From: Dacryopinax spathularia
Taxonomy: Eukaryota; Basidiomycota; Dacrymycetes; Dacrymycetales; Dacrymycetaceae
Reading direction: 5' to 3'
Length of the DNA: 64,000 bases
NCBI GenBank assembly: GCA_037974965.1
Contig: JBBPFI010000014.1
Span: forward strand, 992,001-1,056,000
The notes under the pieces were generated by a model, which saw nothing but the letters and a program-made list of their open reading frames with translations, made no database searches and was not told the origin of the DNA. A program made the position numbers and the translations under genes. Each line of letters opens with the position of its first letter. The first letter of the stretch is position 1. Positions 3,301 through 30,741 of the stretch are shown piece after piece.

Positions 3301-3811
3301 GCTCAATCAGCTCACTCATCCCCCCTTCCTCCTCCTCAGCCTCCTCCAGCCTTCGCAGCCGTTCATCGTCCTCGCGCACACGCGCCTGCTCCTCCAAGTC
3401 CTCAAGCAGCGCCTGCATCTCTGCCTGTACGTCCCTCTCCCTCTCCTCCATCTCCTCGAGCTCATCCACTTGCTCAGCTTGCGGTCCCAGCGAACGAGAT
3501 GTTAGGGGTATGCCGACAGGCTCCTCCTGCTCCTGCTCCTGCTCCTCCTGCTCCTGCTCCTGCTCCTCCAGCTCCAGCTCCAGCCCCAGCCCCTCCTGCC
3601 CCAGCCCCTCCTGCCCCAGCTCCTCCTGCTCCAGCGCGTCCACCTGCATCTCGTGCACGTCTGCTGCATGCCTGTGACGCGGCTGATAACGGAACTTCAG
3701 CAACTTTAGCAGAGTTGCGACTTCCTTTGCGCGCATAGCATCCAGATGTCGACCAACCGTCGACAAGGGCAACACGTTACCACAGCAGCCACATTTGCGC
3801 GTTTGAGCCAT
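384..3811 (-). CDS. CACTA transposase, Tnp2 family (PF02992-like)
   Basis: This enzyme would cut and paste the surrounding element. The N-terminal exon (3811 to about 3280) starts with a small Cys-rich motif (CGCCG...TVGRH, a zinc-finger-like start common in basidiomycete Tnp2 proteins), followed by a Glu/Gln/Leu-rich coiled coil. The main exon (about 3182-1168) has the Tnp2 landmarks: YDCCVNSC, a CPYC pair, DGFAPFKR, a CWP motif, a PGPKQMKDPDSF block, GYKPCRACE and FPLDFMHLLFENV. A further exon (1121-792) continues in phase after a GTAAGC intron. A Lys/Gln-rich stretch (about 752-384, repeated QKK) looks like the C-terminal tail, but I could not find a convincing donor joining it, so the gene may end at 792. 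The gene is divergent from 4147-5303. Confidence 0.85.
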
Positions 3812-9262: not shown

Positions 9263-12200
9263 TACTGATGGTTGGCATCAGCGTGCTGAAGATGGCCGGT
9301 GAGGCTGTAATGTGTCGCACTTCCGTTGTTAGCAGGTGGCTAGGCGGCCGATCGGCTCTAACGACTTGCCTCTGCCGTGGCAGACCAGGCTGATGGTGGG
9401 CCGATTTCTCGCTCTTGGGACGGCATCAAGGCGTGGCTTGGCGGGCCGCCGGCTGTTGCCTGTGCTCTCGTTTTCTCACCGCCGTACGAGAATCGTGATG
9501 ATACCCAGAAATAGGATACCCCTTTGTAACACCGGAAATTGCCCACCGGTAGGCGCCCAGCATAAAGGAAATTTCTAAAGCCCGACGCGTTCGACCAAGT
9601 TTCGGAGGAACATTTCCCCGGCGGAATCTGGAAGATGTAGGAATTTGTGTGGTGTTTGGAAGATCGAGAAGGGATGCAAGGTGCAGCGCCCATCATCGGT
9701 GGCCGGCGATCTCACGCTTCTTCACGCTAGTGATCAAGGATCAGAACTCAGAGCTTTCGCGGAAGATGGAGAAAAGGACGTGGGTCTGCTGGTCTGACAG
9801 CGGGCTTGCCGTCGGCTTTGTTGTGTGGTCTCAAACCAGTGGAAGAAAAGTGTGTTGGAATGCTGGAAGCATCAAGGGCATCGCCGCCGGTGGGCAATGC
9901 CAAAAATAACGAGAATGGTGTCTGCCGACTCGTGCCTGCGGCGCCACAACTTCGACCTGGAAATTGCATGCGTGATATCGGCGGCATTTGACAGGGGCCT
10001 TTGGAGTTATACTCCAGACCTCTTCTCATTGCCAACGTCAACGTAACAAATGTGTTTGTCCAACAAGAAGACGAACACACCGCGGAACGGTTCGACGCGG
10101 TGATGCCGCAATTGTCGGTGGTGCTCAGATGCATCCCTTCTTATTCGCGAAATAAATATAGGTTGGAGCGTCTCCGTTGAGATCGGATATATGGCGGTAG
10201 TCCTGATCCAAATTGCTCCACCGTGTCATCGGTGTTATTGTTGGCGCCTGGCACACCAATGGACGCAGGGCGAACGTTCGCAACTTGCGAGACAAATGAT
10301 GCCGTGGTGGAAGCCGCGGAGACCAAGTACAGCGAAAAGACCTCAATGGACTTTTCTGCGTCCCTTCTGGGCACCATCACTTGCTGATCAGCCTAGCGGC
10401 GGAATCTGAGAGGGTTGAACTCGAGTTTAGCAGATCCTGAGTAAGGCAGGAGGATGATCGATCTGTTTCAATTCTGTGTAGCAAGACTGAAGAGACCCGA
10501 GGGCTACGGCATCCCCTTTGGCCTGTATCAGATGTGTACGCCCGACTGGACATAAGCGAAGCAAAACGGACGAGGTGCTTCGCTTGTGGCCGGCTAGGTA
10601 CCTGACGAAGAAAGAGCCTCGTGTGCTCATTTTCAAACTAGCGGCATGGCAGTTTCGCCTTCATCGGCAACGCATCCATCCGATCGAGTCATACGGAAGA
10701 AGAACCCGTGTTGGAGCAAGGGGTCGCATAGAGAACGGTACACAGTCAAGGCATCCAGTTTACGGCCTAAAAACGTTCAGTACTGGATCATGAGAATCGT
10801 TACGGATAAGTGAGACAGAAACGGAGACAAGCAGGAGCCACGTCGCCTTCACTGCGAAGCTTGTTACGCGTAACCAGTCACGATCGCACGGCCATCGAAT
10901 GGTCCTTCGTGGCACATTTTTGGCACGAGAAATTCGAAGAAGCAGTCTGCCAAGAGCGGGCGAGGCAGTCGAGATCTGGAGGCGTTTCGGCACGATTTGA
11001 GAGAGAAACGGCCGTAAAGCCTCGCAATTCGAAGGAGAGGTGGGTGAACGGAACGACGGGTTGGCGTCCAGGACATCCGGTAGAGTGCTGCACCAGGTCG
11101 ACACCGCCTTAGTTATCCGTTGACAGAGAAAGCGAATTTTTGCTGACCACATCGAACCGAGGAGCTTTTGGTGGAGTTGACGACTGTAGCTCAGAGAGCT
11201 TAGGAGAAGAGCGTTGTAAACACAACTGATGGTCCGCTTCTTGAGCCATCAATAAGGATGCCACAGATCAGCGACATGCCCAGAAGAGGGCTGTATACCA
11301 TGCTCGCGCTGAATTTCTCAGTGAATCCCAGATTGGCTGGGAGGATGGTCGCCCCGTCCCGGACTGAAGGCGATGACGGGGACGCGGTTCCAACGGCAAC
11401 GACCTCACTTGCTGGGGGCTAGCAACATCCCGATGTTCTTCTTTGTTTCTTTGGTCTGAATTGGCAGGAAGGGCTGCCGGACAGGGCCTAGCAACAGCTA
11501 GTCGTGCTTCTTCTGATTGGTGGGAACCATTTATTCACTAGCTCCATAGCATTTTCGATAGAACGTGGGTATCTATCAGACCAAAGTCACCAAATTAGCG
11601 TCTAGTCTCATAGAAAAGCGTTGAAGCAAGTCCCACCTACTGATGCAACCAGTGCCCAGGTTCAACTATCGTCGCCTGATTAGGTGCTTGAGTAACACGC
11701 TCGGAGATGGGCGGGAACTGAGGAAGAAGCGTCTAAGCGGAAAGAGCCGGTCAGGGATACGTTGGTTAGATAAGCAACGCGAGACTCGGCGATCATTTCC
11801 TTTTACGGAAGTGATGCCCGACGCGTCCTCGACCAGTCGTCTAACGCTGCACCGACCGCACCTCCGGCAAGCTGCCGTTCCGGACTGGCACTGCCTCCAG
11901 GCTTCCATTCTAGCTCGAGTCAATCAAGCGCTAGATAACTTTGGCCAGGCACCGGCTAGTCGTCTTGACGAACAGACCCTAGCATTTTGGTGTGGGAGTC
12001 TCTTTCCCACACAATAATACCCGATCGTTGGAATCGCGAAACAGGTTTATTCCAGTGCGTCATCTTTCCGGTATGCAGCAGCTCCGAGTTGTCAAGTTCG
12101 TCAAGCCTACTTTCGTATTACCGGAAAGCCAGAATATCCGACACGCCAAGGAAAGATAACGCTCCAGACGCATGGTCAAAGAGTAAGAAAGACGCGTGAC

Positions 12201-14818
12201 GCGTTCGGTCGACCGCGAGAGCTGACATGAGCAGATAATGCAGCGGAATGCACCGCTTCATCACCTACAATGACGCGGGCGGCGTCGTACCACGATATCC
12301 ATCGCGCTAGTGCGGCTCTCCATGCGGGGTAGCGGGAGAAGTCGGTCCGATCGTTGATGGTGGGTGAGAACCGGTACAGCGGTCTTGAGTTCGTTAGTCG
12401 CCTTGCGTCTAGGCCGGTTATTAGGCGCAAACAACAACTCAGTTGGATCTGCAGTCTTGGAATGACTGAGGAGGCCGTTGTGGTGAACATTCCACTCCTT
12501 GAACACTTCACACATAGCACGACATACGGTTGTTCGACCAAGAAAGACGCAGAATGCCGCAACCGCACGTGCCGCGGCAGAAACCGCTTGAAAGCTTTAC
12601 CGATCCCATTCTTCGCCAGCGGGGTTTTTCGCACACCATCTGGAGAAGTGAATGCGCCATTGTTTTCTTCTCTTTTCTCTGCTTGGCTTCTCCACAGAAG
12701 TGAAGGATGTTATGGGGTCGCACGACTCAAAAAAGTCAATGTATGGGTTGCTTTGGAGCTGGCTTCTCCGCAGTCGACGGTCGTGTGGGGCCTCGCAGCT
12801 TGAATGGGGCTCTTGCAACCGCAGCGATGCAGTATGCGTCAAGATCTTGAACATCCCTTTGAAACTAGCGTCCAGCCTCTTATTAGTATTGGCTGCAAAC
12901 TGTGCTGGCGTTGGTATCTTTCAGACGAAAAGTCAAACGTGCGGTCGTTTCAGCGCTGGATCCGCAATTACACAACTCGAGTCTGCTTGCTGTCCATGGC
13001 GGCGTGTGCGGATGGATCCTCAACTTCGAAAGAGGAGGATGAGCAGATGCGAGATTCAAGCGCACAGAAGGAAATTTAATGACTGGACGCGGAGAATCAC
13101 GATCGCGCAAAGATCGTGCATCTCTCTTTGCCCCTTCCAGATGCGGTAACGCACCCTTTTAGCAAGGACGACCGCCGGATCCAGCAGGGCGATAGGACAG
13201 AACACGAACGACAGCAGTCCCCGTGACCACCACTTCTCCGCATCATTCGTGCTCATTCCGCCCGCCAGCAAGCGACATATTGTGCTGGACATGCGCTAGT
13301 CAGGGTAGATCCTGGAGTAGAGGAGAACATGCCGCCGGCGCTGACTGGGCTGTTTGGGGATCACATGCTCTGGCCTCCGGGGCGCGGGTGTGGCGGCTCT
13401 CGCCTAGATAGCGGCTCTTTCGGCGAAACCCAGTCGGGCGGGAGGAGGGCGTCGGGCGGGCGGCTCGTGCGTCCCGGCCCGGAGAAAGTTGGAGCTCTGT
13501 CTAGCTCCGAGAGGGGAGGATCCGCGAGGGCGGCGCTGTGCCCGCTGTCGGAGGTTCGGATGGGGCTAAGGAACCGGAGGGAGGAGCAGAGAAGCTGTGA
13601 CGCCATTATGAATCTCTGGCATCAGGGAGTTGGAGTCGTCCCGATTAATTGATCCGCGTTTTCGAGAACCGGAGAGAATGGGAAGGCGGGTGAGTGAGTT
13701 GAAGGCAGCCCAGCTGGCGGGACGTTGCCGTGCGACGAGGAAGCCGCGAAGCTCAGGTTCGATCGTGACGAGCGCGGAAGGGCTCCACAGCATTCTGCCA
13801 GGTCCCGCGAGGTAGTATACAACCGTTTCAACAGCATCAGCATGTGCCGATAGCAGTTTGTCGAATGAGCGAGCGGAGAAGAGAAAAGAGGAAGAGGAAT
13901 GTGCCGCGCCGGACCGGTGGTCAAGACAGGTTCGTAAAGCTTTGAAATAAAACGAAGCCTACGCACATGCGTATCGTTGGAGCGCAGGCACGTAAAGAGT
14001 CAGACAAAAGCGAAAAAGCCAAAAGCCGAAGGCAAATCGGACTTTGTCTGCGTACGTGTGTGCGTGTCTTCGGTAGTTCGGCTGTGGCTCTGCCCTTTTT
14101 TTCTTGCGATGAGCAAATGAGCGGATTGGAGAATTGGCGAATGAGAAAGCAGGTAAGCGGGACGAGCGGAAAAGAGCGCCCTCCGCCGCCGGTGTGTTGC
14201 ACAGGTTTCGCATTTCGCAAGGGTTGTAATACGTATGCGATGTGGGACCTAGGGACCAGCGCGCAATTCATAGATCAGATAGGCGTGCGATCCGGACTTC
14301 CATTGGTTTGTCTCGCGGGTTGGTGTGAAAACACGACCGATACTGGAGCGTTTTGGTAGCCCCGCTTGCTGTGCAAAGATGATGGACGGATGACCGGTTG
14401 ATTACTGATTATCCATCTTGTTTATTACTTGATCTGGTCAGAGCCGTGCGCGCTAGCCTTGTGGTGATACGCAGCTTAATGGAAGGGGTAGAAGGGATGG
14501 ATGAAAGGACGAAAGCTGTGCACGGGGACTGACGAGTGCTCTGCGTCTATGTCTCGCCAAACGCCGCGGGCTGAGCTGGTGACCCGCATGGTCCCCTTTC
14601 GGGTGGCGCCTCGGAGGGAGGGACGCACATGTCCCAGGGGTCTCTCTTCCCTCTCCAAGAATCTTGCCGATTTGAGTTGGATTGGAAGAAGGTGCCTTTG
14701 AAAGGGGGGACGATGATTGCCATGGCTGTGCATGAGTCGAACCAAGACCAGAGATTATTTGGGATTTCTCGATCACACACCCTTGGGCCTGGTCGTGACC
14801 CAGCCCAGCCGATAATCT
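9263..14818. other. 5.5 kb stretch without recognisable genes
   Basis: Both strands hold only short open frames with no recognisable domain, no run of plausible exon joins and mixed codon use. Composition is ordinary, with a CpG-rich block around 13340-13560. Two related short segments, GGCTAGCAACATCCCGATGT near 11417 and GCCTAGCAACAGC near 11488, hint at old duplicated sequence. No transposase, reverse transcriptase or long terminal repeat could be made out. It could hold a long noncoding RNA, a heavily decayed element or the distal regulatory DNA of the regulator at 16410. Confidence 0.45.
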
Positions 14819-15845
14819 GGTTCCGGCCGTATGGAAGCCTTCCGCGGACAGCTCCCTGAGCTGTCCGCAGGGGGCTACCGAGCTCGGTCAAAGCTGGACT
14901 TGACCGGGCTCGACCCCCACTACAAGGGTACAGGACCCCTATAATCCGGGCTTTGGCTCAGAAACCTTGGCTTTTTAATATAACAAGTAGGTTGCAAGAT
15001 ATTTCATAACACTTAGGAACAGGAAAACATGTAATTTACTCATTTTGTTTGACTTTTACAGGAGCTGCTTTTATGTTTGTTCCTTTTCTTAGAAGATGTT
15101 CTGTATTTCAGCACCGAAACAAACATGAATTTGGCTATGTTGAGCTTATTTCACAGCTACAGCATGTTAAGTAAACAGCTCAAATTCCCATATCTGATTA
15201 AATGCCTTATGTAGTGTAAATTAACGAATAGTCACCAAACTCTAGCAGTAAGCCAAATTGTCTTTAATTTATGTCCAGAAAAAAAATGCATACTTTGGGA
15301 TACCAGCCATTATAGTATTATTTCAGGGCAAAATACTAAGTGTTTAGCCTACTAAAGCTAGTTGTATTTATTAGCATGAGGTCAAGTCACATACCCCAGT
15401 CTATATCTCTTAATTTACTTTCATTTTCTTACCAATTTCAGAGTTTTTCTATGACCAGCAATAAGGTTATCTGAGCAAGGATGCTTTATTAGAGGTAATT
15501 ATTGCTGAAAATCTATAAGCTCTCTTGAAGATTATACAAGTTTAACTTACCTATTAAATTCCTAATTTACATTTGGTTGTGTTGGTATCTAGTTTAATTA
15601 CATGTACAGGCCAAAAGCAACTTATGCATAAACAAAACCTAAAAGGGTATATTAGTTCCATATTTGTCTCTCATTAGATGCCGTACCAGGGTCCTTTAAG
15701 TTACTACTTAAGACATGTGTCATATTTCTGCTCTCTGGGCCTTCTGCACCTTTGCCTAGCCACTTACCCGGTCCCGCGGTTTTTGGACCCTGAATGGACC
15801 CCGGAGTCGAGCTGTCCGCGGGAGGCTTCCATACCGGCCGAACCC
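14819..15845. mobile_element. AT-rich island bounded by GC-rich inverted repeats, possible non-autonomous DNA element
   Basis: The left repeat (14819-14854) and right repeat (15809-15845) are inverted copies of about 36 bp with a few mismatches; both carry GTATGGAAGCC and GCGGACAGCTC. Inside the left end are two more hairpins: an 11 bp perfect stem at 14844-14854/14858-14868, and CGAGCTCGGTCAA (14879-14891) against TTGACCGGGCTCG (14900-14912). The core, about 14965-15700, is strongly AT-rich with no coding potential and stands out sharply from its surroundings. No target duplication is evident, so the element may be old or the boundaries slightly off. Confidence 0.55.
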
Positions 15846-16409
15846 AGCTTTCCCCCGCCCGGTTCTGAGTGCGATCCGCAACTCTGGGGGAGGAGAGAGG
15901 AACAGGACACGACGCACACACGCAGCAGCGAGACCGCACTAACCCGCTATACCGGGGCAATCCGCCCTTGGCATCCTCCCTCTCCTCCTCCTTTCACCTC
16001 TCTCTCTTACAAGCTACCCCTTGCCAGCAAGCCCATATTTCCCTTCTTAGGTCGCACGGGTCCAGCTTCGAACTTTGGGCTCGTTGTGCCAGTTTCCCAC
16101 ACACGCCCGTGCACACCCTCTTCCTGGACATTCGCGTCTTATCCCTAACAGACCGGCTCATGCTCTGACCCCCTCCTCTCCTGGGCGACAATACCAACAA
16201 ACAGTACAACCAAGGACGTGCCGACCATTCCGACAGCGGTCTCATAGCACCACCACCACCACCAGCCTCTCATTCTCGACCCGCCACCATCTCGATCCCC
16301 CTACAGGCGCTCGAGCCCCCCATCTTGACCAGCTGAACCACCTTGCATCTCTTGCATCCTCTTGCTGCATACATCTACCCCTACTCTACCCATCGTTGTG
16401 AAGAAGCAG
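15846..16409 (+). promoter_or_regulatory. Promoter and long CT-rich 5' leader of the Zn2Cys6 gene
   Basis: The sequence is increasingly pyrimidine-rich toward the gene (CCCTCTCCTCCTCC, then repeated CACCACCACCACCACC near 16250). This is typical of fungal 5' untranslated leaders. An in-frame ATG at 16362 would add 16 residues to the downstream protein. No coding exon is recognisable. Confidence 0.45.
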
Positions 16410-19229
16410 ATGCCGAAAGCAACCGCACCTTCATCATCTGGTCCGACGCTTGCTCGTAACCAGGCCTGCCACACATGTAGGAAACGAAAACAAAAGTGGT
16501 GCGTATTCTCACCGTCTCTATCGCATACCTCCAGCATACTGAGGGCTGACTGCGATCTACAGCGATGCTGCCCGTCCGTTCTGCGGAGGCTGCGTACGGT
16601 CATGGAAGGCCCGAGGGCAGACCATCTCCGACACGACCGGCGGGACGCCTGCATGCACGTACGACGACCCATGGGACTTCGTCCCCGGTCACAATGGGCA
16701 CGACGCGCAGACCATCGACCACCTCAAGGCTCGGATTGGCGAGCTAGAGAAGAACCTGCCCGGCCGGCCCGAAGGACCGATCCGCTCGCATTCTCAACCC
16801 CAACTGCCAACCTCGAACGGTACCAGCACCAGCACCCATAACTTCATACCGAGCGGAGGGATGTTCGAGGGCTTGCAGGCGTCCAAGCCGTTTTCTAATG
16901 GGATCAGCATGCCCTTCAACACCTCGATGAACGGGATGAACGGGATGTTCCGCACACCCGACCTCACCCCATCGCTCAGCACCACCAGCTCTGCGAACGG
17001 TTCACCGCAAAGCTTTGGACCGATGTTCTTCAACAACTGGCCGCCCCACCTCCCTCAACCCGACATGCTACATCATCTGTACGTTAATTCATTCACACAG
17101 CGCAGGACAGACGCTGACACTTGCGACAGAGTCGATGTCTTCTTCGCTCACTTCCCCCTATCAGCCCGCATCATCCACAAGCCGTCCTTCCTCCACGGGC
17201 TCACCCACTCACCCTCCGACCCCTCATTCCCGCCCGCATCCCTCCTCCATGCTATCTGCGCCTATGCGTCCATGTTCTCACCCGCTGTACCCACTCCGAT
17301 CATCCAGGATGCACCTCCTCCAGAACAAGGTGAAGCGCCGAAGAAGCCCATGAAACGGCCTGAGAGCTTCGGTGATTTCCAAGCCAGGCTAGCGAGGAGC
17401 TGCGCAGACGAGAGCACCGCACTCGGCCTCCACCTAGTCGAGAACTTCCAAGGTGCGCCCATCTCCTGCTACATTGACATAGCGCATATACTGACCTTTT
17501 GACCGCACAAACCACAGCAATAACGATCCTCGGCTGGTACTGGTTCGCGCAAGCCCGCTGGGTGGAGTTGTGGATCTGGTCCGGAGTTGCCCTGCGTCAG
17601 GCCGTCCCGCTAGGTCTGAACGTTTCGGACGAGATACCCACCACCCTAAACCGTTCGGGCAAGACAGCTCTGCTGCCCTCTTTGCCGGATACTGAAGAAG
17701 GAAGGATCGACGCTGAGATGAGAAGAAACACGTTCTGGGCGGCGTACCTCCTCGAAAGGGTACGTATATGCGCTTACTTCACGTCAGAACTGTGCTGATA
17801 AGGGAGCAGTACGCTTGTGCCAGCGCAACCTGGGCCAACTCGCTCGACGAGCAAGACATCTCCACCGAACTCCCGATCTGCCAACAAGACTGGGAACAAG
17901 GCACGAAGATCGAGTTCCCTCGCCAGCGTCTCGCTACACCCGATCTGCTCACTTCCCACCCCCAAGAGATCCTCGACGCATTCGGTATGCACGTCAAAGC
18001 GGCCCACTTGATGTCACGCGTGCACCTACACAACCTCCGTTTCCGGTCTACGCCGCAAGCGGCTGGAGTGACGGATCCCAGGGATGCGCCCGCGTTCAAG
18101 CAGCTCGATGGCTTGATTGCCGCGTTTGTCTACTCCCTGCCTGCGAAGTTCAGGGATCCGTTCAAGGCGGATGGGGGGACGGTGTTTGACGCTAATTTGT
18201 ATATGGTCGCCGTGCTTCCTCATTTGTGAGTCTAGACTACCCTATCCAACGCGCATATACTGAAGTTTCTGGTAGGGCCGTCATTCATCTCCATGACCCG
18301 CATGTGGACGCTTCAAACCCTAATGACCCTTCGGCAGACCGAGTCCTCTCAGCAGCACGGGCAATCCTGCACACTGTTTACATTCTCTGCAGTACCTCGT
18401 TTGACATCACCCTTCTTATCCATGCCTGTTGTGTAAGTGTCCCTTCTCCGCTCAGCTTTCAGTAGGGTGTGCTGATTGTATCTATAGCAAGCATGGTATC
18501 TTGCTGCGCGCGTACTTGTGAGGTTCTTGAAAGCTGCTATTGAGCGGCAGGACCGGGATGCGGCGATGACGCTGCGTGGAGAGATCCAGGTCTTCCAGTG
18601 CGTCCATCCCTAAAACCCCCAATCAGGCAATAGCTGACCGGTTTCATCCCAGACTCGCACTATCACGAATAGGGGAGAAAGTCCCGCTCGGTCAGCGGTT
18701 CGGCAAGATGCTCGCCGAGCTGCTCGAGGCCGAGATGGGCGAAGTCGAGGACAAGATGTCATTCTCGTGCGAAGGCAAAGACATCTGGGAAGCCGGCGCC
18801 GGTCCAATGACAGGCGTCGTCAGCGGCGCACAGGCATTCAGTCTCTTCCCCAGTAGGGAGACGAGCGTTTCTGGTGCTGGACCTGGCAGTGGTTCGCTCA
18901 ACGGCGGCGCTACTCTCGTCGAAATGGAGAGCCCGCCGGATATGCACAACTTGCCGCCTAATGGACCGCAAGGTGCCATCTTGCCTCAAGTCCCGCCTGA
19001 CCCGCTGGACGACCTCGGCGGCGGAATGCAAGGTCTTGACGGCCTTCTTTCAATGGATTCGCTCGGCATGTCCATGGGCCTCCCGCATACATTGTCACTC
19101 GGTCCGGAGATCGGCATCGACATCGATTTTGGCACGCTGCAAGCGGGCATGAACACCGGCATGCACGCGAACACCATGGCAGCCGCGAACGCAATGGTGA
19201 ACATGGGCGCGCCCCTCGGAACTGTATGA
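16410..19229 (+). CDS. Zn2Cys6 transcription factor with fungal-specific regulatory domain
   Basis: This is a nuclear DNA-binding regulator. Eight exons (16410-16498, 16563-17078, 17130-17452, 17518-17759, 17810-18225, 18276-18432, 18488-18597, 18653-19229) stay in phase and give 809 residues. The zinc cluster is at residues 20-61: CHTCRKRKQKC, then PFCGGC. The sixth cysteine comes only after a 20-residue spacer, longer than the usual 5-9. A short coiled coil (IDHLKARIGELEK) follows. The fungal_trans domain starts near VDVFFAHFPLSARIIHKPSF and includes YWFAQARWVELWIWSG and RRNTFWAAYLLER. The C-terminus is Met/Gly/Asn-rich and acidic, a likely activation region. The target is unknown; it lies 1.2 kb from the MFS transporter and may belong to the catabolic cluster. 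Confidence 0.9.
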
Positions 19230-20427: not shown

Positions 20428-22272
20428 TTACACGACGTCCTCGCTGAGCTTTTCCTGGTGCGACATCTCGGAAGCAGCAGTCTCCACCTTGCCGGTGTTA
20501 CCGGCGTTGATCTGGTCGATCCGGTGCTTATAGTCGGAGTCTTCGGCGGCGAAGCCGAACAGGACGTCCATCTCGGGCATGGAGAGACCCTCTGCACAAA
20601 CCGGTCAGCTATCTGAGATAGCGAGTGAGTGCCAGGAGAATGCTTACTGGTCTCGGGGAGGAAGAAGAACGACCACACGGCTGAGCCGAATAGCATGCAG
20701 CCGAAGAAGAGGAAGACACCCCAGCCCATGCTGGTGAACATGCTGGGCAGAGCCTTGGTGAGCACAAAGCCGAACAGCCACTGAAGCATGGCGTAGTATG
20801 CTGCGCAGATACCACGGACGTTGAGCGGGTAGATCTCGGCAGCAACGATCCAAGGCAGGCCATTGGCGCCAAAGGACCAGAAGAAAGAGTAGAGCATGAT
20901 CATGGCTGTGCCGGCCTTGCCACCAGCAACAGTTGACGCGGAGAGGTTAGTTTGGCCGGCCGGGTGGCCAACCTTCACGTAGACGGCGAGGTAGACCATG
21001 CAGATGCAGCAAAGGATGGAAGAGGTAATCCAGGGCTGTCTGCGTCCCCATCGGTCGATGAAATAGAGGTAGAAGATGATGGAGCCGATAGCCTTGATAA
21101 GACCATAGATACCGGTGTAGAGGGAAGTCTGAGTGATACCAATGGCGCCGAAGAGGGTTGGGCTGTAGTAGTTGATGGCTGCTGCACCGGAGAAGTTCTG
21201 CCACATGAACATCATGAAGGAGAGGAAGACACGGTTGCGCATGCCAGGAAGGCTCAGTTCGTGGAACGAGCCACGGAGGTAGCCCCAGAGACTGTCTTGG
21301 CGACCGACAGCGATGGAGCGCTCATTCTCGATCTGGAGCTGAATAAGGGCAATGTCCTCCTGGACATCTATATACGCAGGTCAGGGAGGTTACATCAGAA
21401 CGGGGCTTTGAACAACGTACAGTGGTGATCCACCGGGAGATTGCGAAGCCAGGTCAAGTTCTTGATGGCTTGCTCATCCTTGCCGCGCTTGAAGAGGAAT
21501 TGGGGGGTCTCCACGAAGAAGATGGACATGATGCCAAGCATGGCAGCCGGAATAATCTGGACAGCCATGGGAATCCGCCATGTCTTGGTCTCGTTGGAGT
21601 TCATGTTTTGACCAATTCCGTAGTTAATCCAGAAGCCGATGACTGAAGCGCACTGGTAGGCGATCTCAAAGAAGCCGGTCATTTGGCCACGAATAGGCGG
21701 AGGCGCGATTTCAGCAAGGTAGGTTGGCGTGGCTGCAGTGATACCACCGCACCCAAATCCAGTAAGGAGACGACCGGCATAGATCATGCCGAGTTGATTT
21801 GTGGCTGCAGTACACAGGATGCCGCCGATGAGGAACATGAAGACTGAAGCTTGGAGGGTGACTCGGCGACCGAAGCGTTCCATGATCGGCCAACCGAATG
21901 CCGCACCGAAGAAAGCACCGGCGGAGAAAAGCGCCGTGATGTTTGAGCTGACGTTGTTCTTTTCGGTCGTGGACATGTTGACAAGGCCAAAGTCGCGTTG
22001 GAACGATGCTCTCGTGAGTGTTGTGCCGATGAAAGCACCATCATAACCCTTTTCGGAACGTTAGACATTCGATCCAAGAGGAATTGTCCGGCTATGCACG
22101 GATGTAAAACTTACAAAAGTGAGGGCGCCCCAAGCAATTTGGATTCCAGTGAAGTATGTTTGGAAGTTGTACTATAACCGCCAAGTGTAAGCGACTATAC
22201 GGCGACAGAACGCGTCTGAATACGCACAACTTCCTTGGGCGTAGGCCGGTCCTCGACCCTCTTGAATCCCAT
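20428..22272 (-). CDS. MFS sugar-family transporter (sugar or quinate type)
   Basis: This is a plasma-membrane proton-coupled transporter of the sugar porter family, 12 membrane segments expected. Exons 22272-22228, 22171-22115, 22048-21421, 21367-20648 and 20591-20428 join in phase to 537 residues. Landmarks run in order: FGYDGAFIGTTL at the end of segment 1, ERFGRRVTLQ between segments 2 and 3, AGRLLTGFGCGGITAATPTYLAEIAPPPIRGQ, a central loop with VETPQFLFKRG, DRWGRRQPW, and the PETSKGLSMPEMDVLF tail. The motif set fits hexose, quinate, galacturonate or rhamnose carriers, and I cannot choose among them. It shares a 0.7 kb divergent promoter with the GH106-like gene, arguing for a plant-polymer sugar as substrate. 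Confidence 0.93.
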
Positions 22273-22979
22273 TTCGACGAGAAGGCTGGTTGTGGACGAT
22301 GGGGATTTGCGTGGGGAATGCGGGTCGGAGACGCGGGGAACTCTGCGGGGAAAGAAGAGTGTGCGGATAGAAGCGTGGTTGACGGAGAGAAGCGTAGTTA
22401 TAGTCCTGGCGCTGCCCCTGACGGCATTTCAATTGGCCGCAAATTTAGAATCGCATGGTGTGGGGTTTCGAGGTGCGGGGAAGGCACGGCTCGTCATTCA
22501 GACATCGGTTTCGGTTACCGCTTTAGCGACGCATTCGGGTCTTCGGTATATCGGATGTAGTTCGGCCCGAATCGGATCTTGCCAATCGAGAGCTATCACC
22601 GCCGGAAGCAATCGCTGTTTAAACTTGCGTTCATTGTCTGCCCCACCCACCGCGCTTGCCGGTCGGGGCCCCGCCGAACTGTCGAGCGCGCCAGAAATTC
22701 TCAGAAGTGTCCCGGCACGATCAAACTTCTCACATCTTCGCGCCGGCATGGCAACGTGATCCGAGGCTTTCGCATCATCTTCTTGCGACCGCGATTGAGT
22801 TCTGGCCTGTACCTGAATCAGATCTGGTGAAGTTCGGTCAACTCGAGCGCTTTGCCTCGGGGCGATTGCTACGCCGACGAGGGCTCTAAGGAGTTGCTGG
22901 AGCTCCGCATGTCATATCACTGTCAAACTGGACTCTCGCATTTCTCCGTTTCTCTCCTCTGTTCTGCTTCAGTCAAGTC
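22273..22979. promoter_or_regulatory. Divergent promoter between transporter and glycoside hydrolase
   Basis: These 707 bases separate two head-to-head starts and hold no gene. A 10 bp palindrome CGGGGCCCCG (22663-22672) sits near the middle, flanked by further CGG/CCG triplets; Zn2Cys6 factors typically bind paired CGG triplets. That it is such a site is inference. Confidence 0.5.
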
Positions 22980-25900
22980 ATGGGGGAGCTTCCAGGAGAA
23001 ACCCAAGCTAGGGGCGCAAACCCTCTCACATACCCCAAATCCACCCGACCTTTCGATCTCGCTCTATTCCAGGAGCCGACGGCGGAATACCGAGGTTCGC
23101 CCTTTTGGTCATGGAACAGCAATCTGGAGAAAAACAAGCTACTGAAGCAGCTGGATGCATTCGAGAAGATGGGTATGGGCGGCGTCCATATCCACAGCCG
23201 CATTGGTCTGGATTCGGAATATCTTGGTCCCGAATTCATGGATTGCTTGAAAGCAAGTGTGGAAAAAGCCAAGGAAAAGCATATGCTTGCTTGTTTGTAT
23301 GACGAAGATCGATGGCCTAGTGGATACGCTGGTGGCATCGTGCTGAAAGAGCACCCTGAATTTCGAAGCTTGCATTATCTGCTTACACCATGGAAATACG
23401 GTGAAGCCCCTGAAGGAGCTATAGGGTGCGAAAGACGAGCTTTTGTGCGTCCAGCAGATTATTGATCTGATGCGCAGAGCTGGACGAAAAACCAGTACCT
23501 CGCCTGTTCGAACGGAGCTTGGCGACTATATAACGAGCTTTGACGTTATCCTTGACACGGAGGGAAAGTTGTCCTCGTACAGGCGACTGCAGCCCGGCGA
23601 GAGCGGCAGCAATGTATGGCACCTCTACGTCGAACCGAATCCGCCTTCCGAGTTCTATAACAACGATACTTACGTCGATGTCCTCAACAAGGACGCAATT
23701 GAGTATTTCATCACAACCACCCACGAGGCTTTCAAACGCGAAGTTGGACGAGATTTTGGCAGCGCTGTCCCGTCAATCTTCACAGACGAACCGCAATTTC
23801 AAGCCAAACTTGGTCTCAAGCGTGCGTTGGATAGACTCGATGTTTTCGGTCCCTGGACGCGGGGGTTCGAAGCCTATTTCCAAGCCAGTACCGGCTATGA
23901 TCTGCTGGATCGCTTTCCCGAGCTCATTTGGGATCTCTCAAACGGGATACCGAGTCGGGCGCGCTACGATTACCACAACCTTACCTCGGAGCTCTTCGTC
24001 GAGTCCTTTTTGGACACTATCTCAGAATGGTGCCGAGCCAACGGCATTCTGATGGCTGGGCACATGCTAAGGGCAAGTCGAGCTTAATCATTTTGAGCGT
24101 GCTTCTTACAACGTTTAGGAAGCTACCTTGAACTTACAGACCCAAAGTCTTGGTGAGGCCATGCGGTGTTATCGCAATATGGATATACCGGGCATGGATC
24201 AGCTATGCGACGGACGCGAATTCACAACGGCCAAGCAAGCGCAGAGTGTGGTTCGTCAGAATGGCCTGCGAGGGATGGTCAGCGAAATCTATGGCGTAAC
24301 AAACTGGGATTTCACTTTCGAGGGGCACAAGGGGCAAGGAGACTGGCAAGCAGCGTTGGGCGTTACTCTTCGCGTCCACCACTTGGCTTGGCAAAGTATG
24401 GCGGGCGAAGCAAAACGAGACTATCCTGCTGCTATCGGATACCAGTCCCCCTGGTATGACCAGTACAGGCTGGTTGAGGATCATTTCTCGCGCTTGAACA
24501 CGGCCCTTACCCGAGGCAACCCCGTTTGTCGTGTCGCGGTCATACACCCGATCGAGAGCTATTGGCTGCGTTACGGCCCTTATAACCATTGCGGAGAAGA
24601 ACTAGCGCACCGCGATGCCGCCTTTGCAGACTTGACCAACTGGCTCTTACTCGGGCATATCGACTTCGACTTCATCAGCGAGAGTCTGTTCCCTGAACAA
24701 ACCCCTCTGGACGACATTACCCGAGACTATCTTCCCGTCGGTCATTCGCGATATGAAGCAGTACTTGTACCAGACCTATTAACTATTCGGTCATCGACTC
24801 TTGAGCGGCTTTCTCGGTTTGCCGAGGCAGGCGGAACTGTCATATTCGCTGGCACTCCCCCTAAATATATCGATGGCGACGTGGCGTCTCCCAGTTCAGC
24901 TGCGGCTCTGGTGGCCCTCTCTCAAGGGCGGCGGACGGTCCCATTCGCGAAGTATCATATACTGAAAGCAGTGGAAGGTTTCAGAGACCTGGATATTCGT
25001 CTCAGCGAAGATACTCTGTATCTTAGGAACGGAGATAGGGCAACCACCATTCTTTACCAGCTTCGGGCTGATGCCGCCGACAACTACCTCTTTTTATGCA
25101 ACACCGATCGAAAAGAAGCATGCCCTGCTGAAGTCACTTTGAAGGGTTTATGGCACTTGCGGGTACTCGTTTCCCTGATAGCTTGCTATGCGCATCTGAA
25201 AGTTCATATAGGTTCTGGATACTCAAACGGGGAACACATGGTCCTTGAAGTCTGAACAACATGATGGCCGTACCACTTTCAAATACTGGTTCGATGGATG
25301 TGCCAGCCTCCTTCTCAGACTTACCCGTGAAGAAACGCTCTCTCCAGCAAAGAATTATGTCTCTCTGCAAAACTCATTCGCTGAGTACGGTGAGGTAGGT
25401 CCACGTTATTACCATCCCGCCTTTCGGAATCTTCACACTTGAATAGGTTACGCTCGAAGGTGTCAGCCTGTCGGAGCCCAATGTGCTGCTGCTGGATTGC
25501 GCAGAGTGGAGAGTGAATGAGGGCCCGTGGGAAAAGGCGGAAGAAATCCTCCGCATAGAAAATCTCGTGCGCGCAAGACTCAATCTACCGTTCAAGTCGG
25601 CTGGAGGGCGACAACCATGGATGATCAAAGAAGACGAACGTGGTACTCGGGGTAATGTCTTCGTCCGATTCTCGTTTGACTGCAGATGTGATGTTCCCGG
25701 CACCGTGCAGCTCGCTCTAGAAGATGCGGAAAGTGTTCAAATACGCTTCGATGGCCAGGAAGTTCCGTCCGTCGTGAATGGATGGTGGGTGGATGAGGAT
25801 ATCAAGACCTTAATACTCCCGCCCTTACGCCAAGGAGTCCACACTGTGGAAATCACGTATAACTTCAGCATCGTCACCAACCTGGAACGGGTATATCTCC

Positions 25901-26418
25901 TTGGAGAGTTTGGAGTGGAGCTTCGTGGCGCCAAGACGGCAATCAACCCGCTGGATTTGGCTAGGATAACCTTTGGCGACTACACGCGCCAGGATCTGCC
26001 ATTCTATGCTGGCAATATCACGTACAACTGCGAATTCGAGAATCCGACTCCGGGACCCACGGCAATCCAAGCAACACGTTTCGCGGCTCCCGTTCTGACC
26101 GTGTCGCTAGATGGGCAGCCGGTGGGTCATATAGCATATGAGCCCCACATAATCGCCATCCCCGATCTCCCTGCCGGAAAGCACAAATTGTCTATCACTA
26201 CCTATGGAAACCGGGCCAACGCTTTCGGCCCGCTTCACCTGCCAAAAGGTCTCACCAATTGGTATGGCCCGAACGCTTGGAGGACCGATTTCGACTGGTG
26301 GTCAAAGGAATATAATCTTGTGGAGATGGGTCTATTAGAGACGCCAAGGGTGAAGAAACCGGGGAGGGAACAACCAGCAGCTAGAATGGGGTATCGCTTC
26401 GAGCTGAAAGCATTATGA
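22980..26418 (+). CDS. GH106-like glycoside hydrolase (alpha-L-rhamnosidase type)
   Basis: A large enzyme of 1079 residues, related to the group annotated as GH106 alpha-L-rhamnosidases. Exons are 22980-23425, 23478-24072, 24119-25162, 25212-25394 and 25447-26418. The second intron is GC-AG (GCAAGT donor at 24073). Near residues 41-46 is PFWSWN, then GGVHIHSRIGL and YDEDRWPSG (107-115), all characteristic of this group. FTDEPQ (250-255) and HPIESYW carry acidic residues likely at the active site. After a linker with LDTQTGNTWSL, the C-terminus is beta-rich with repeated jelly-roll-like strands. I see no obvious signal peptide, so the enzyme may act inside the cell on imported oligosaccharides. 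Substrate specificity is inferred only from the family. Confidence 0.85.
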
Positions 26419-26585
26419 AAAGAAGGCAAGGAGACGCCGCGAGAGGCAGCATGGGCGTAGATTAATCGCACTAACACGCTTGGGCATCCCGATGGTGTAC
26501 TTTTATAATTATGCTGAGGTAGTATACAATGTTGCACGAGATGCACTTCGGAAGCGCACACAAAAAGAAAACTAGACAGAAAGGA

Positions 26586-29131
26586 TCACTGGGGCTCATA
26601 CCACAGATTGGCCAGCGTAGGATCAATGAAGAACCCAAACGGGTCCAAGTTGTTATTCCACGTCGACGCAGCAATGTGGGCCGCCAAAGTTGCCTCGTCC
26701 AGGTCTGTCGCAGGCGGCAGATTTTGAGAACTGAGGAGGACTTCAGCAAACGAGAAGGTCCTGGGAAGCAACACTACTCACGAAACGTCGAAAGAGCCAC
26801 CGTTGTGAAATGGGCCAGTCATTGGCGTGCGCGCAGGAGGGGGATCCTTAGAGCGGTTCCCGTCGAGGTATAAGCCTGCTCGAGCCGCTGTGGCCTGCAA
26901 CTTCCTGCTCAGGAAAGTAGCCAAGCCAGTTTTGCTCCGGTCTCTGCGCGACAGTGCATCTGTGAGCGACTTCAGCAGGTAGATAGCAGCATTTTCATCC
27001 GGTCGTGCATCGGCAACATCGGCAGCTTCGACTGGATTCAGACCAGCGCTGAAGCCATCCCAAACGTCTGGGCCAGGCCGGGCCAAAGAAATAATGGCGA
27101 GACCAGCTTGAGCAAGGGTGAGGATGTTGTAGTCCGGCGCGAAAGAGATGGCTTCGTCCGTACTTCCGGAGTCAATGGCTTCTTGGATAATGATAGCTTT
27201 GGCGGACTCCACGGCAGCGGACACCACCGTAGACAATTTCGGTCCTTCAGGAGTGCTACCATCTTTCGCAATAGTCTTGAGCACGAACAGTGCCAAGCAT
27301 AAACGAACATGCTCTCCGTATAGCCGTGAGATCGGAGTTGATGCACAAACAAAGCGGGATCGGCGACGGACCCATCTCGTACTCCAGTCTTCAAGGCGAG
27401 GTGCTAGTTGTGCCCACAAGAGACCTGGTCCGGAATCAGTCAGCGAAGTTGCACCAACCTCCTGCAAGATCTGCTTACTGCCCGGGATAGGTTGCACCCC
27501 CGTGGCTCTCCAGTCATCTGCCCATTGAACCAACTGCAGACAGATGCTAGCCAGCTCCGATTGACAGGCCACAAAGATGTCAGATGATGTGGCACTCGCG
27601 CTCAAAGATGCCGATCTGCTTGGACGTTGGCAGAATGTGCCGGGTCGTCCAAAGCCCAATGTATGACTGAGGCCATTTTGAGCAAACGTTAAGAAGCGGA
27701 GGGGCATCTGGCACTTACTAGCAATCGAATACGCAGGCCAGCTGCCATACACGTTCCCTCTCCTTCTCACTATGCTGAGATGCCGCACTTCCAGCGCTGT
27801 CAAGACCCAGCTTCTTCGCCATGCGCAGTGCATGACCTGACAATATCCAAGCGTCCGGTCCTTCTCCATTGGCCCGCAGGCCCCACCCAGTCATCAAGAG
27901 GGTAGCTTGCACATCCTCGAGAATGAGTACTTTTCTTGTCATAGTGGAACCCAGCGAGCCTTCCGAATGATCGGCGAGTGCTTCGTAGAGTGCTTGCTCT
28001 TCCGCTTGTCCGGAAGAGATTCGTGCTCCAAGAGCAATGCATACCGTTGAGAGAAAGGATGATCGAGCACGGAGATTGTCTAACGTTGGTGGTGGTTCTT
28101 CGGCGAATATTGGTAGGAATGGTAGACAGTGCTCTAGGAATCTGAAAGTTTGTGAGCTGACGGCGTAGAGACTGGAATGGACAATGCCTCACAGGTTATA
28201 ATAGTAACCAGCCATCTCCATCGAAAGGAGACCAGCTTCCACCACATCGTTTGACGGTAAGCGCCGTCCCACTTGGGGTGCTGGACTGGGATATCGACTC
28301 AACTCCCGATTTTCGAAGACAGACTTGTTGAAGACAACATCGCCGAACGGTGCCTGCACTCGTTCATCAGGCGGATCTTCAAGGGGCCGCTTGGTACCAT
28401 GGGGAAGCACAGCGGCGGATGGTGATCCTCCTCGAATCCAGCTTGTAGGCAGGGTGACGGCCGCATTGCTGGGAACACCATGATTCTGCGGTAGTCTCGT
28501 ATTGGAGAGTACACCTGTGGGTGGATATTCTGCTGGCCTCCCAGGATGCACAGCAGACGATAGCGGGATAGCCTGTGTTTGCTGTAGCCGTTGAAGAGAT
28601 TCTGGGGATGATGACGATGGCCAAGACGCGTCGGAAGGCGTTGTTACTGGCATACCGCCAACGTGGTTTTGGGAAGAAGGGCTGATTGGAGTTGGAAAGA
28701 CGTTTGAGGGGGGCGGAAGGGATGCTGCTTGGGTTGGAGGGTGAGCAGTAACACCTTGAGTATACACCGAAGGCTCTTGCGGTTGCCCCATCGCTCTTCT
28801 CAGGTTCAATAATTCATTCTCGAGCTGTCCTATGCGGGCAGTCGTAGAGCGCACGCCAGGATTAGCGCGGGGAGGTGGGAGATGGCATTCTCTCCCAAAT
28901 CCCAGCTTCTCGCATCGTTGACAAGGTTGACCACCAGAGCATCGTAACTACAGCACGAAACGTGGGTGATGAGACCGGACATTCCTCGATTGAATCAGAG
29001 TGACAGATTTAATTACGCACCTTCTGCTGCCTGCACCTCGCGCAGGCTACTGACGTCCTTGCCAATGGCCGAGATGTTTTCGGTCTCTTGTCCGTCCGAT
29101 GCTGATCACCCTGTACACCATCTTCAGCCAT
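26586..29131 (-). CDS. Zn2Cys6 transcription factor, cluster regulator candidate
   Basis: Exons 29131-29021, 28947-28193, 28141-27719, 27666-26782 and 26730-26586 give 772 residues. The zinc cluster lies at residues 30-58 (CARCRQQKLRC, PCQRC, GREC) with standard C-X2-C-X6-C-X5-C-X2-C-X8-C spacing. A Leu-rich coiled coil (IGQLENELLNLRR) and a long Pro/Ser linker follow, then the fungal regulatory domain (ILEDVQATLLMTGWGLRANG, DAWILSGHALRMAKKLGLD). The last intron (51 nt, GTGAGT donor, GCTGAAG branch, CTCAG acceptor) removes an in-frame stop and attaches the typical NNLDPFGFFIDPTLANLW tail. It is divergent from the aldolase gene with 493 bases between starts and tail-to-tail with the hydrolase, so it is the best candidate for controlling them. 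Confidence 0.9.
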
Positions 29132-29624
29132 AGTATGTTGTAAGAGTATACCGAGTCGGGTAGTCGGTGGGCCAGGATGAACGGCGAACCGGCGATGTGG
29201 CGACCGAAAGCAGCTGAAGCTGGTGGAAGCTGTCAGGGTGGTCAGCTCGGAGGAAGCGGAGGCGGGGTCAGGCGGGGTCGACCCCGAGGTGGCGGGATGC
29301 CCGCTTCCCACGGCCATGGCTCTGGTAAACCATTCGGGAAACCCTTATCGGCCCCTCGGGATCTCCCGAACCGAATTTCATCTCGTGCGAGTCTTTCTTC
29401 GCTTCTCACTGCCGCCGGTCAATATGTATGTCAATCATCATCCTATAGCCCCGGCACCGGGAACTATGGAGCTACCGGCACACAGAAGACAGAAGGCGGC
29501 CCGACGTGTAGGCGAGTGCCATCGAGGCCCAAAATGATCTCCGATCCGGGATATATACACCTATGTTCAAGTCGCAATCTGTAGAACTCCACCCTCGCAA
29601 CTGGCAATCTCTCTTCAATCTACA
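29132..29624. promoter_or_regulatory. Divergent promoter between regulator and aldolase
   Basis: These 493 bases hold a perfect 14 bp palindrome CGGGGTCGACCCCG (29273-29286), whose left arm is repeated directly just upstream (GGCGGGGTCAGGCGGGGTC). A second inverted pair, CGGGA-TC-TCCCG, lies near 29358-29369. Palindromes with outward CGG/CCG triplets are the usual shape of Zn2Cys6 sites, so autoregulation by the adjacent factor is a reasonable inference. Confidence 0.55.
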
Positions 29625-30741
29625 ATGTCCCCTGTTGCCGTCACCAAGACCCGCAAGCTCAAGGCGGGCATCCATGTCCCTGTTTTGACATTCTTCGAGA
29701 ACACTGCGGCGCAGGACATCGACATCCCTACGTATGAGAACCACGTTCGCCGAAGTACGTTCAGACAGCTGTCAAGGAGACGAGGTTGCTGATAGATGAA
29801 CAGTGGCGGCCGCTGGTGTTGAGAGCATTGTTGTGCTGGGGTCGACCGGCGAGGCGGTGACGCTAAGCTTGGAGGAGAAGAAGCAACTACTTTCCGTGAC
29901 GCGCAAGGTCCTGGACGAGATGGGCTTGGAGGAGATGCCAGTCATTGCTGGGTTGGCGACTCAGAGCACAAGGGAGGCGATCTCAACGGCCGATGCTTTC
30001 GCTGAGGCTGGTGCGGACTTCCTCCTGGCCTTGCCGCCTTCGTACTATGCTGGTGCGATGACCAAGGCAGCCATCAAGGGCTTTTACACCGAGGTGCGTT
30101 GAGCAAACTGGTTGAGGGCCGTCTTATCTGACCCCGAGTTCAGCTCGCCGATGCCTCTCCTCTTCCTGTCATCATCTATTCGTATCCTGGTGTCAGTTCT
30201 GGTCTGGAGCTCGACTCCGAGGATGTGCTCGAGATTTCGAAGCACCGGAATATCCGGGGTATCAAGCAGACGGACCACAATGTCGGCAAGATGGCTCGCA
30301 TCGCTGCTGCAAGCCCCGATTCTTCATCATTCGCAGTGCTGGGTGGTGCCTCCGAGTACCTGATCGGCTCCCTTGCTGTCGGTGCCATCGGGTGCATTAC
30401 CGGCATGGCCAACCTCACGCCTGTCACTTGTGTTCGGGCTTATAAGGCTTGGGTCTCTGGCGACTACGAGGAGGCGCAGCGGTTGCAGGGCCTAATTGCG
30501 ACCGGAGAGTGGGCTTTCGGCAAGAACTCCCTTCCAGGGGTCAAGGTGTGTATCAATTGGCATTATGTTGCGGATTGCGTTCCTAATGGCCGATCAACAG
30601 GCCGGTATGAACCACTATGTCGCGTACGGCGGCGTCTGCCGCAAACCTGTCCCAGAAGCGTCTGCCGAGATCAAGGCTTGGACGGTCAAGCAGCTCGCCT
30701 CCCTGTTTGCTCAGGAACGTGCCTTCACTTCGAAGAACTAG
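29625..30741 (+). CDS. DapA-family aldolase (dihydrodipicolinate synthase/NAL superfamily)
   Basis: This is a class I, Schiff-base aldolase of 320 residues from exons 29625-29754, 29804-30093, 30144-30545 and 30601-30741. GSTGE (56-60) forms the substrate carboxylate pocket, Y152 in YSYPG is the conserved catalytic tyrosine and K181 in GIKQT the Schiff-base lysine. Fungal members of this superfamily include L-threo-3-deoxy-hexulosonate aldolase (GaaC/LGA1) of D-galacturonate breakdown and similar 2-keto-3-deoxy acid aldolases; fungi do not use DapA for lysine synthesis. With the GH106-like and MFS genes nearby, a sugar-acid aldolase is the likely role; the exact substrate cannot be read from sequence alone. 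Confidence 0.88.

Follow-up and report, generated by a model that had tools for sequence, protein, structure and literature searches.

We analyzed a 64,000-nucleotide window of the genome of Dacryopinax spathularia (GenBank assembly GCA_037974965.1; 29.2 Mb in 24 contigs), i.e., positions 992,001 to 1,056,000 of the forward strand of contig JBBPFI010000014.1, which is labeled C14 here. Four intron-split genes, which together occupy exactly positions 20428 to 30741 of this window, encode an MFS sugar-porter carrier, a GH106-like hydrolase, a Zn2Cys6 transcription factor, and a DapA-family aldolase. With a probability of roughly 55%, these genes form one partial unit for the utilization of L-rhamnose (or rhamnosides) with an aldolase of the LRA4 type. 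The carrier and hydrolase genes (minus and plus strands) are a divergent pair, as are the factor and aldolase genes (minus and plus strands), and the hydrolase and factor genes converge (Table 1). The final gene models are each open to a single terminal stop. The gene models and family matches thus bear out the four genes and the two shared divergent promoter regions that an earlier, sequence-only reading had described.

In such a unit, the carrier would take up L-rhamnose or, more likely because the hydrolase is leaderless, a small rhamnoside. The hydrolase, as an enzyme of the Ram106B type of GH106, would free L-rhamnose inside the cell. Enzymes encoded elsewhere would oxidize L-rhamnose to L-rhamnonate and dehydrate this product to 2-keto-3-deoxy-L-rhamnonate, which the aldolase would split into pyruvate and L-lactaldehyde (the LRA4-type step). 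The Zn2Cys6 factor would respond to a pathway intermediate and drive both divergent promoters. Within this scheme, the cargo of the carrier and the coregulation of the four genes are what we infer.

More tentatively, the porter may take up intact small rhamnosides (pectin fragments and plant glycosides), and a cytosolic, bacterial-type GH106 enzyme gained by gene transfer may free L-rhamnose beyond the reach of rivals. Together with a DapA-family LRA4, these genes would be a compact cut-and-catabolize module assembled independently of the ascomycete LRA clusters. This import-then-cut route would differ from the secreted rhamnosidases of Aspergillus niger and Aspergillus nidulans. If it exists, rhamnosides are brought into the cell and cleaved in the cytosol by a bacterial-type enzyme, instead of being cut outside before uptake of the free sugar, which would bear on competition for pectin, the origin of fungal sugar clusters, and the conversion of pectin waste. 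The window aldolase would then be a candidate for the last step of the rhamnose pathway.

The hydrolase and the sugar that it releases

The Pfam GH106 match of the hydrolase was partial (residues 274 to 611 only; E = 4e-9; 36 bits against a cutoff of 29), and its NCBIfam match was weak. A profile built from the hydrolase and three bacterial relatives matched the solved GH106 structures 6q2f (RHA-P; E = 7e-29) and BT0986 (E = 3e-24). When the AlphaFold model of an orthologue from Phycisphaerales (45% identical; predicted local distance difference test score, 87.7) was compared with the PDB by Foldseek, the GH106 chains 6q2f, 5mqm, and 5mwk occupied ranks 1 to 3, followed by beta-galactosidases, several of which were labeled GH42. 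We apply the GH106 label because of these profile and fold matches rather than a strong Pfam score.

Of the 148 columns invariant in 32 bacterial orthologues, 144 are unchanged in the hydrolase; the remaining ones show W to F, Y to F, F to M, and I to M substitutions. The general base is kept, as E403, also invariant in the 32 orthologues, aligns with E593 of BT0986 (counted along the profile alignment), which is named as the base in PMC6828813. The classical general acid (BT0986 E461) is not matched: the TDSIE motif of 6q2f, which holds the acid, aligns with TDEPQ. The protein has a mass of 122.0 kDa and no hydrophobic leader (0.36 is the highest Kyte-Doolittle mean of any 11-residue stretch among residues 1 to 60). 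A pseudogene or frameshift was rejected, given these conserved residues and the fact that all changes of frame fall at introns of 46 to 52 bp. The second intron (46 bp; 24073 to 24118), which starts with GCAAGT, is best read as GC-AG, while the other introns in the four models are GT-AG.

Four thermophile enzymes (Tm_, Tn_, Cb_, and Ts_Ram106B) are described as keeping the base, not matching the acid, and having no signal peptide and masses of 115.8 to 121.3 kDa (PMC6828813). They are metal dependent and, among the p-nitrophenyl glycosides tested, were active only on the alpha-L-rhamnoside. The window hydrolase resembles them in mass, the retained base glutamate, the absence of the classical acid motif, and the lack of a leader. 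Tm_Ram106B adjoins ABC transporters, and so do several bacterial relatives of the window hydrolase. The likeness is one of described features, and the window enzyme differs in being fungal, in having an intron-split gene, and in standing beside an MFS carrier. Judged from its sequence, the hydrolase is best placed with the intracellular Ram106B-type alpha-L-rhamnosidases of GH106. It is very probably an intracellular alpha-L-rhamnosidase, and we strongly infer that L-rhamnose is the sugar released.

Among the GH106 papers listed in our literature searches, no title or abstract opening described a fungal Ram106B-type enzyme, and we found no paper joining an intracellular fungal GH106 rhamnosidase with horizontal gene transfer. 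GH106 in such fungi is not itself new, because it is reported as overrepresented in two soil Tremellales (PMC7147457).

A tblastn search of plasmids with the hydrolase matched 68 records, 3 of them with a query coverage of 80% or more; the best match was a Deinococcus gene (44% identity over 93%, and 51% in the longest single-frame piece). The most similar relative found, on a plasmid of Deinococcus sp. KNUC1210 (locus L009, 12001 to 15022), is spread over three reading frames and annotated as three genes, suggesting a sequencing error or a decaying copy. Scanning genome contigs with the single hydrolase protein gave 24 pattern matches and no relative, whereas an alignment-based scan detected at least 562 relatives among 596 stretches. 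The bacterial orthologue set consisted of the best 80 relatives, which were bacterial by their titles, near full length, and 40 to 46% identical to the hydrolase. In a quick maximum-likelihood tree of 81 rows, the window protein, which was the one fungal row, had no supported sister; its branch was long (1.37) and arose among the bacterial rows at a fork that the tree did not resolve. This placement is compatible with a bacterial donor as well as with other origins.

We then considered 82 loci, i.e., those of the best 80 relatives and two plasmid loci; the reading-frame finder recognized the whole hydrolase in 79 (all except L061, L070, and L092). Frame clusters for L-rhamnose isomerase (RhaA) and GH78 rhamnosidase were present in 5 and 6 of these loci, respectively, with approximately 0.36 expected for each on the assumption of one copy per 3.2 Mb. 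Clusters that we took to be rhamnulokinase and rhamnulose-1-phosphate aldolase occurred in three loci each. Pfam scans of one representative per frame cluster confirmed RhaA and GH78, whereas for the other two the scans went no further than an FGGY kinase and a class II aldolase; frames of these two types flank RhaA in L045. RhaA lies 9 bp downstream of the Ram106B-like gene in L024 and 18 bp upstream in L082, and the gaps to GH78 are 27 bp in L028 and 4 bp in L072. Both L024 and L082 look like operons, and they could serve to pin down the function of the clade as a whole.

Direct neighbors of the hydrolase relatives (at least 120 residues; within 600 bp) numbered 138, and the 97 on the same strand were scanned. 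Among the families listed (the first 25 of 259 NCBIfam and 85 Pfam), four were GH78 and two were RhaA; most of the 97 were unrelated to one another. We also surveyed the genomes belonging to the 50 longest of the 80 loci: RhaA was encoded in 44 and L-arabinose isomerase (AraA) in 25 (24 above the cutoff), with discordant pairs of 22 to 3 (p = 1.6e-4). This excess is supportive rather than decisive, because gut Clostridia, often users of plant sugars, account for many of the genomes, and all of the genomes compared carry the hydrolase. The GH106 profile and fold, the bacterial neighborhoods, the cooccurrence of RhaA, and the kept residues support L-rhamnose, already suggested by the sequence-only reading, as the sugar released.

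The aldolase and the rest of the pathway

The aldolase matches the DHDPS family (E = 3.2e-42) and retains the Schiff-base lysine and the tyrosine listed in Table 1. Its best solved relative is 3qfe, a putative DapA-family protein whose substrate is not stated (37% over 249 columns), followed by human HOGA1 (32.5% over the aligned stretch). The active-site residues of LRA4 are also Lys and Tyr (PMC4891683). For A. niger, LRA4 candidates were chosen by the domains of Scheffersomyces stipitis LRA4, after which the text refers to "the five remaining genes" as having PF00701 (PMC5674754). Taken together, the Lys/Tyr pair and this wording imply, without stating it, that yeast LRA4 is a DapA-family protein, so that the window aldolase may belong to the rhamnose pathway itself. 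LraD of A. nidulans, which catalyzes the same last step, is an HpcH/HpaI-family enzyme (PMC9699597), and at least two unrelated aldolase families seem to serve this step in fungi. An assignment of fungal LRA4 in general to the HpcH family was dropped: it holds for A. nidulans LraD, but PF00701 is implied by what is written about S. stipitis LRA4.

The window aldolase is thus putatively of the LRA4 type, with 2-keto-3-deoxy-L-rhamnonate as its presumed substrate; it may possibly be a GaaC. The DapA superfamily had been tied mainly to galacturonate at the outset. That link stands insofar as GaaC is possible, but it was too narrow, since LRA4 of the yeast L-rhamnose pathway is apparently of the same family (PMC5674754).

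An L-rhamnonate dehydratase is encoded on contig C3 (447.5 bits against an NCBIfam cutoff of 393; PDB 2p0i, E = 1.4e-182), with no other rhamnose gene recognized by eye within the 10 kb read. The genome also encodes a D-galactonate dehydratase on C8 (459 bits; cutoff, 311) and two L-fuconate/L-galactonate dehydratase-like (GaaB-like) paralogues (C2:1531362 and C5:776503) that are 78% identical. The C2 protein matches human enolase-superfamily member 1 and a bacterial L-fuconate dehydratase in the PDB, and no aldolase was recognized by eye in the 10-kb stretches around the two genes. Other matches were to the HpcH/HpaI family (C10 and C8), GH78 (C5), and GH88/GH105 (three). None of these pathway genes is on C14, in agreement with the earlier expectation that the missing dehydratase steps would be encoded elsewhere. 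Neither LRA1 nor LRA2 was seen beside the cluster, and neither was searched for in the genome. There was no match to bacterial-type RhaA in the genome, and a phosphorylated rhamnose pathway was rejected for this reason; an L-rhamnonate dehydratase without a bacterial-type RhaA is what the nonphosphorylated route requires.

The carrier matches Sugar_tr (E = 8.5e-101) and the TIGR00879 sugar-porter model (E = 1.3e-98; 330.8 bits against a cutoff of 237.8). Both it and the factor are weak evidence if taken alone, because both gene types are abundant in the genome, with 283 first-look Sugar_tr candidates (9 of them scored) and at least 24 Zn_clus matches. Five of the Zn2Cys6 domain matches lie on one strand within 8 kb (C8:28670-36626) and may be a tandem array of transcription factor genes. 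In contrast to these two gene types, the hydrolase was the sole match of its type in a protein search of the genome, and a family search found two PF00701 genes, the second being on C4 (30% identical to the window aldolase over the aligned stretch); both counts may be lower bounds. The chance that a DapA gene lies at most two genes from the hydrolase is roughly 0.1%, a post hoc figure that assumes approximately 10,000 genes. An exon-by-exon PF17132 search gave no match in the genome and missed the window gene itself, and thus was unusable for counting GH106 genes.

Known clusters and competing readings

Such a unit would belong to a known kind, the yeast rhamnose clusters. A 12.8-kb region of Candida auris contains LRA1 to LRA4, an MFS gene, a rhamnosidase gene, and RhaR, all named by homology (PMC11326119); its carrier, rhamnosidase, factor, and aldolase roles are all represented in the window, while LRA3 is not. 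In Pichia pastoris, LRA1, LRA2, a regulator gene, and LRA4 are clustered, with LRA3 apart (PMC4891683), and in Debaryomyces hansenii one RhaR gene is near a potential rhamnosidase gene and LRA4 (PMC4245848). These ascomycete clusters resemble the window in linking a Zn2Cys6 or other regulator with LRA4; the C. auris region further includes an MFS carrier and an alpha-L-rhamnosidase, as the window does. Unlike them, the window has no LRA3, its rhamnosidase is of the intracellular GH106 type, and its factor is only a candidate RhaR. In the rhaB-rhtA pair of A. niger, an alpha-L-rhamnosidase gene adjoins an MFS carrier gene (PMC5161314), but the enzyme is a GH78 protein with a predicted secretion signal and the genes are in tandem, whereas the window pairs a leaderless GH106-type enzyme divergently with its carrier. 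The variant features are a bacterial-type intracellular GH106 in a fungus and a reduced gene set. Clusters of this makeup had been thought not well described in basidiomycete yeasts; with nearly the same makeup known in the ascomycete yeasts cited above, the type is less new than supposed.

The factor has the domains of RhaR/TRC1, i.e., a Zn2Cys6 domain (Zn_clus, E = 2.6e-8) and a fungal-specific factor domain (Fungal_trans, E = 1.6e-8; both for a 725-residue version without the last exon). The earlier view that the gene identities are firm goes a little too far as regards the hydrolase and the role of this factor.

Several observations weigh against a rhamnose unit. RhaR genes of A. nidulans and Cryptococcus neoformans share an intron approximately 21 residues after the Zn cluster (PMC4245848). 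The gene model of the window factor lacks it (its introns follow residue 37 and about residue 288, and the last Zn cysteine is residue 58), and we do not call the factor RhaR for this reason. No word of at least 9 bases is common to the two divergent promoters, nor is there a clear CGG/CCG spacing. As LRA3, the L-rhamnonate dehydratase gene, is unlinked, on C3, the cluster is not a complete LRA1-LRA4 set, and the HpcH/HpaI aldolase on C10 belongs to the family that supplies the LRA4-type step in A. nidulans. Deletion of three LRA4-like candidates left the growth of A. niger on L-rhamnose unchanged (PMC5674754), and L-rhamnose still supports the growth of a C. auris isolate that lacks the cluster, although it is assimilated differently (PMC11326119). 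Lastly, 2 of the 97 codirectional bacterial neighbors (among the families listed) are L-fucose isomerases, and 4 are FGGY kinases that are no evidence for rhamnose because their best names are glycerol kinase and xylulokinase.

Another possible, though unlikely, reading is a cluster for rhamnogalacturonan oligosaccharides, in which the carrier would import rhamnosyl-galacturonate, the hydrolase would split it, and the DapA protein would be GaaC, the aldolase of the galacturonate path, cleaving the 2-keto-3-deoxy-L-galactonate derived from galacturonate. The two GaaB-like dehydratases in the genome, the unstated substrate of 3qfe, and the two GaaC copies reported in each of two other basidiomycetes (PMC9781776) are consistent with this possibility. 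The galacturonate genes of Rhodosporidium toruloides include GaaC in a pair with the dehydratase GaaB (PMC6918025); this basidiomycete yeast resembles the window in placing the aldolase in a shared-promoter pair, but the partner in the window is a Zn2Cys6 factor, the dehydratases are on other contigs, and neither of the contigs with a DapA gene yielded an enolase-family dehydratase. The models flanking the window aldolase are the factor and a prephenate dehydratase, not a sugar-acid dehydratase or uronate reductase. Likewise, the bacterial neighbors include rhamnose enzymes but, among the families listed, no uronate isomerase or reductase; 2 of the 97 match a KHG/KDPG aldolase/kinase fusion model.

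It is rather improbable that two unrelated divergent pairs lie side by side, with the carrier and rhamnosidase as one unit and the factor and aldolase serving another 2-oxo-acid reaction (e.g., 4-hydroxy-2-oxoglutarate cleavage). The rank of HOGA1 among the solved relatives, the frequency of Zn2Cys6 and sugar-porter genes, and the lack of a motif common to both promoters would fit such an arrangement. Against it stand the scarcity of DapA-family genes, one of only two found in 29 Mb being two genes from the sole hydrolase of its type, and the recurrence of linked factor, LRA4, and rhamnosidase genes in ascomycete yeasts. A shift of the hydrolase to L-fucose or another 6-deoxy sugar, with the cluster serving that sugar, is very improbable: the L-fucose isomerase neighbors and the two L-fuconate-dehydratase-like genes of the genome point in that direction, but RhaA and GH78 are at least as frequent among the same neighbors, RhaA is in most of the surveyed genomes, and the characterized Ram106B enzymes cleaved only the alpha-L-rhamnoside among the p-nitrophenyl glycosides tested (PMC6828813).

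Gene models and surroundings

The gene models were made with a small splice-aware gene finder, and their splice sites, inferred from the DNA sequence without RNA, were then corrected by hand. Introns in the four genes are 46 to 73 bp long.

Table 1. Coordinates of the cluster genes, promoter regions, and adjacent factor gene in the window
Feature	Position	Strand	Details
Second Zn2Cys6 factor	16410..19229	+	809 aa; convergent with the MFS gene; Fungal_trans E = 2.2e-14, Zn_clus E = 2.7e-5; cluster membership uncertain
MFS sugar-porter carrier	20428..22272	-	5 exons (22228-22272, 22115-22171, 21421-22048, 20648-21367, 20428-20591); 537 aa; Sugar_tr, TIGR00879
Divergent promoter region, MFS and hydrolase	22273..22979		707 bp, from start codons of the models
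GH106 (Ram106B-type) alpha-L-rhamnosidase-like hydrolase	22980..26418	+	5 exons (22980-23425, 23478-24072, 24119-25162, 25212-25394, 25447-26418); 1,079 aa; 122 kDa
Zn2Cys6 transcription factor	26586..29131	-	5 exons (29021-29131, 28193-28947, 27719-28141, 26782-27666, 26586-26730); 772 aa in the best model, last acceptor uncertain
Divergent promoter region, Zn2Cys6 and DapA	29132..29624		493 bp, from start codons of the models
DapA-family aldolase	29625..30741	+	4 exons (29625-29754, 29804-30093, 30144-30545, 30601-30741); 320 aa; Schiff-base Lys181, Tyr152

The sugar-related unit consists of four genes, or five if the left-hand Zn2Cys6 factor is counted. Continuation of the cluster to the right was rejected, as the next genes encode a prephenate dehydratase and importin alpha; among the models searched, these are followed by a SET-domain protein, an HPP membrane protein, an M24 peptidase, and phosphoacetylglucosamine mutase. 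On the left-hand side, beyond the second Zn2Cys6 gene and a gene-poor stretch, the searched models are NPR2, alpha-SNAP, and a tnp2-type transposase. Scans of the window for tRNA genes and Rfam families gave no matches.

The gene-poor stretch, between NPR2 and the Zn2Cys6 gene (about 9300 to 16400), spans approximately 7 kb without a convincing gene model and has a lower G+C content (0.477 at 14001 to 16000). The Tnp2-type transposase-like gene lies at the left of the window (792 to 3736, minus strand; Transposase_21, E = 8.9e-25) and presumably marks a CACTA-like DNA transposon.

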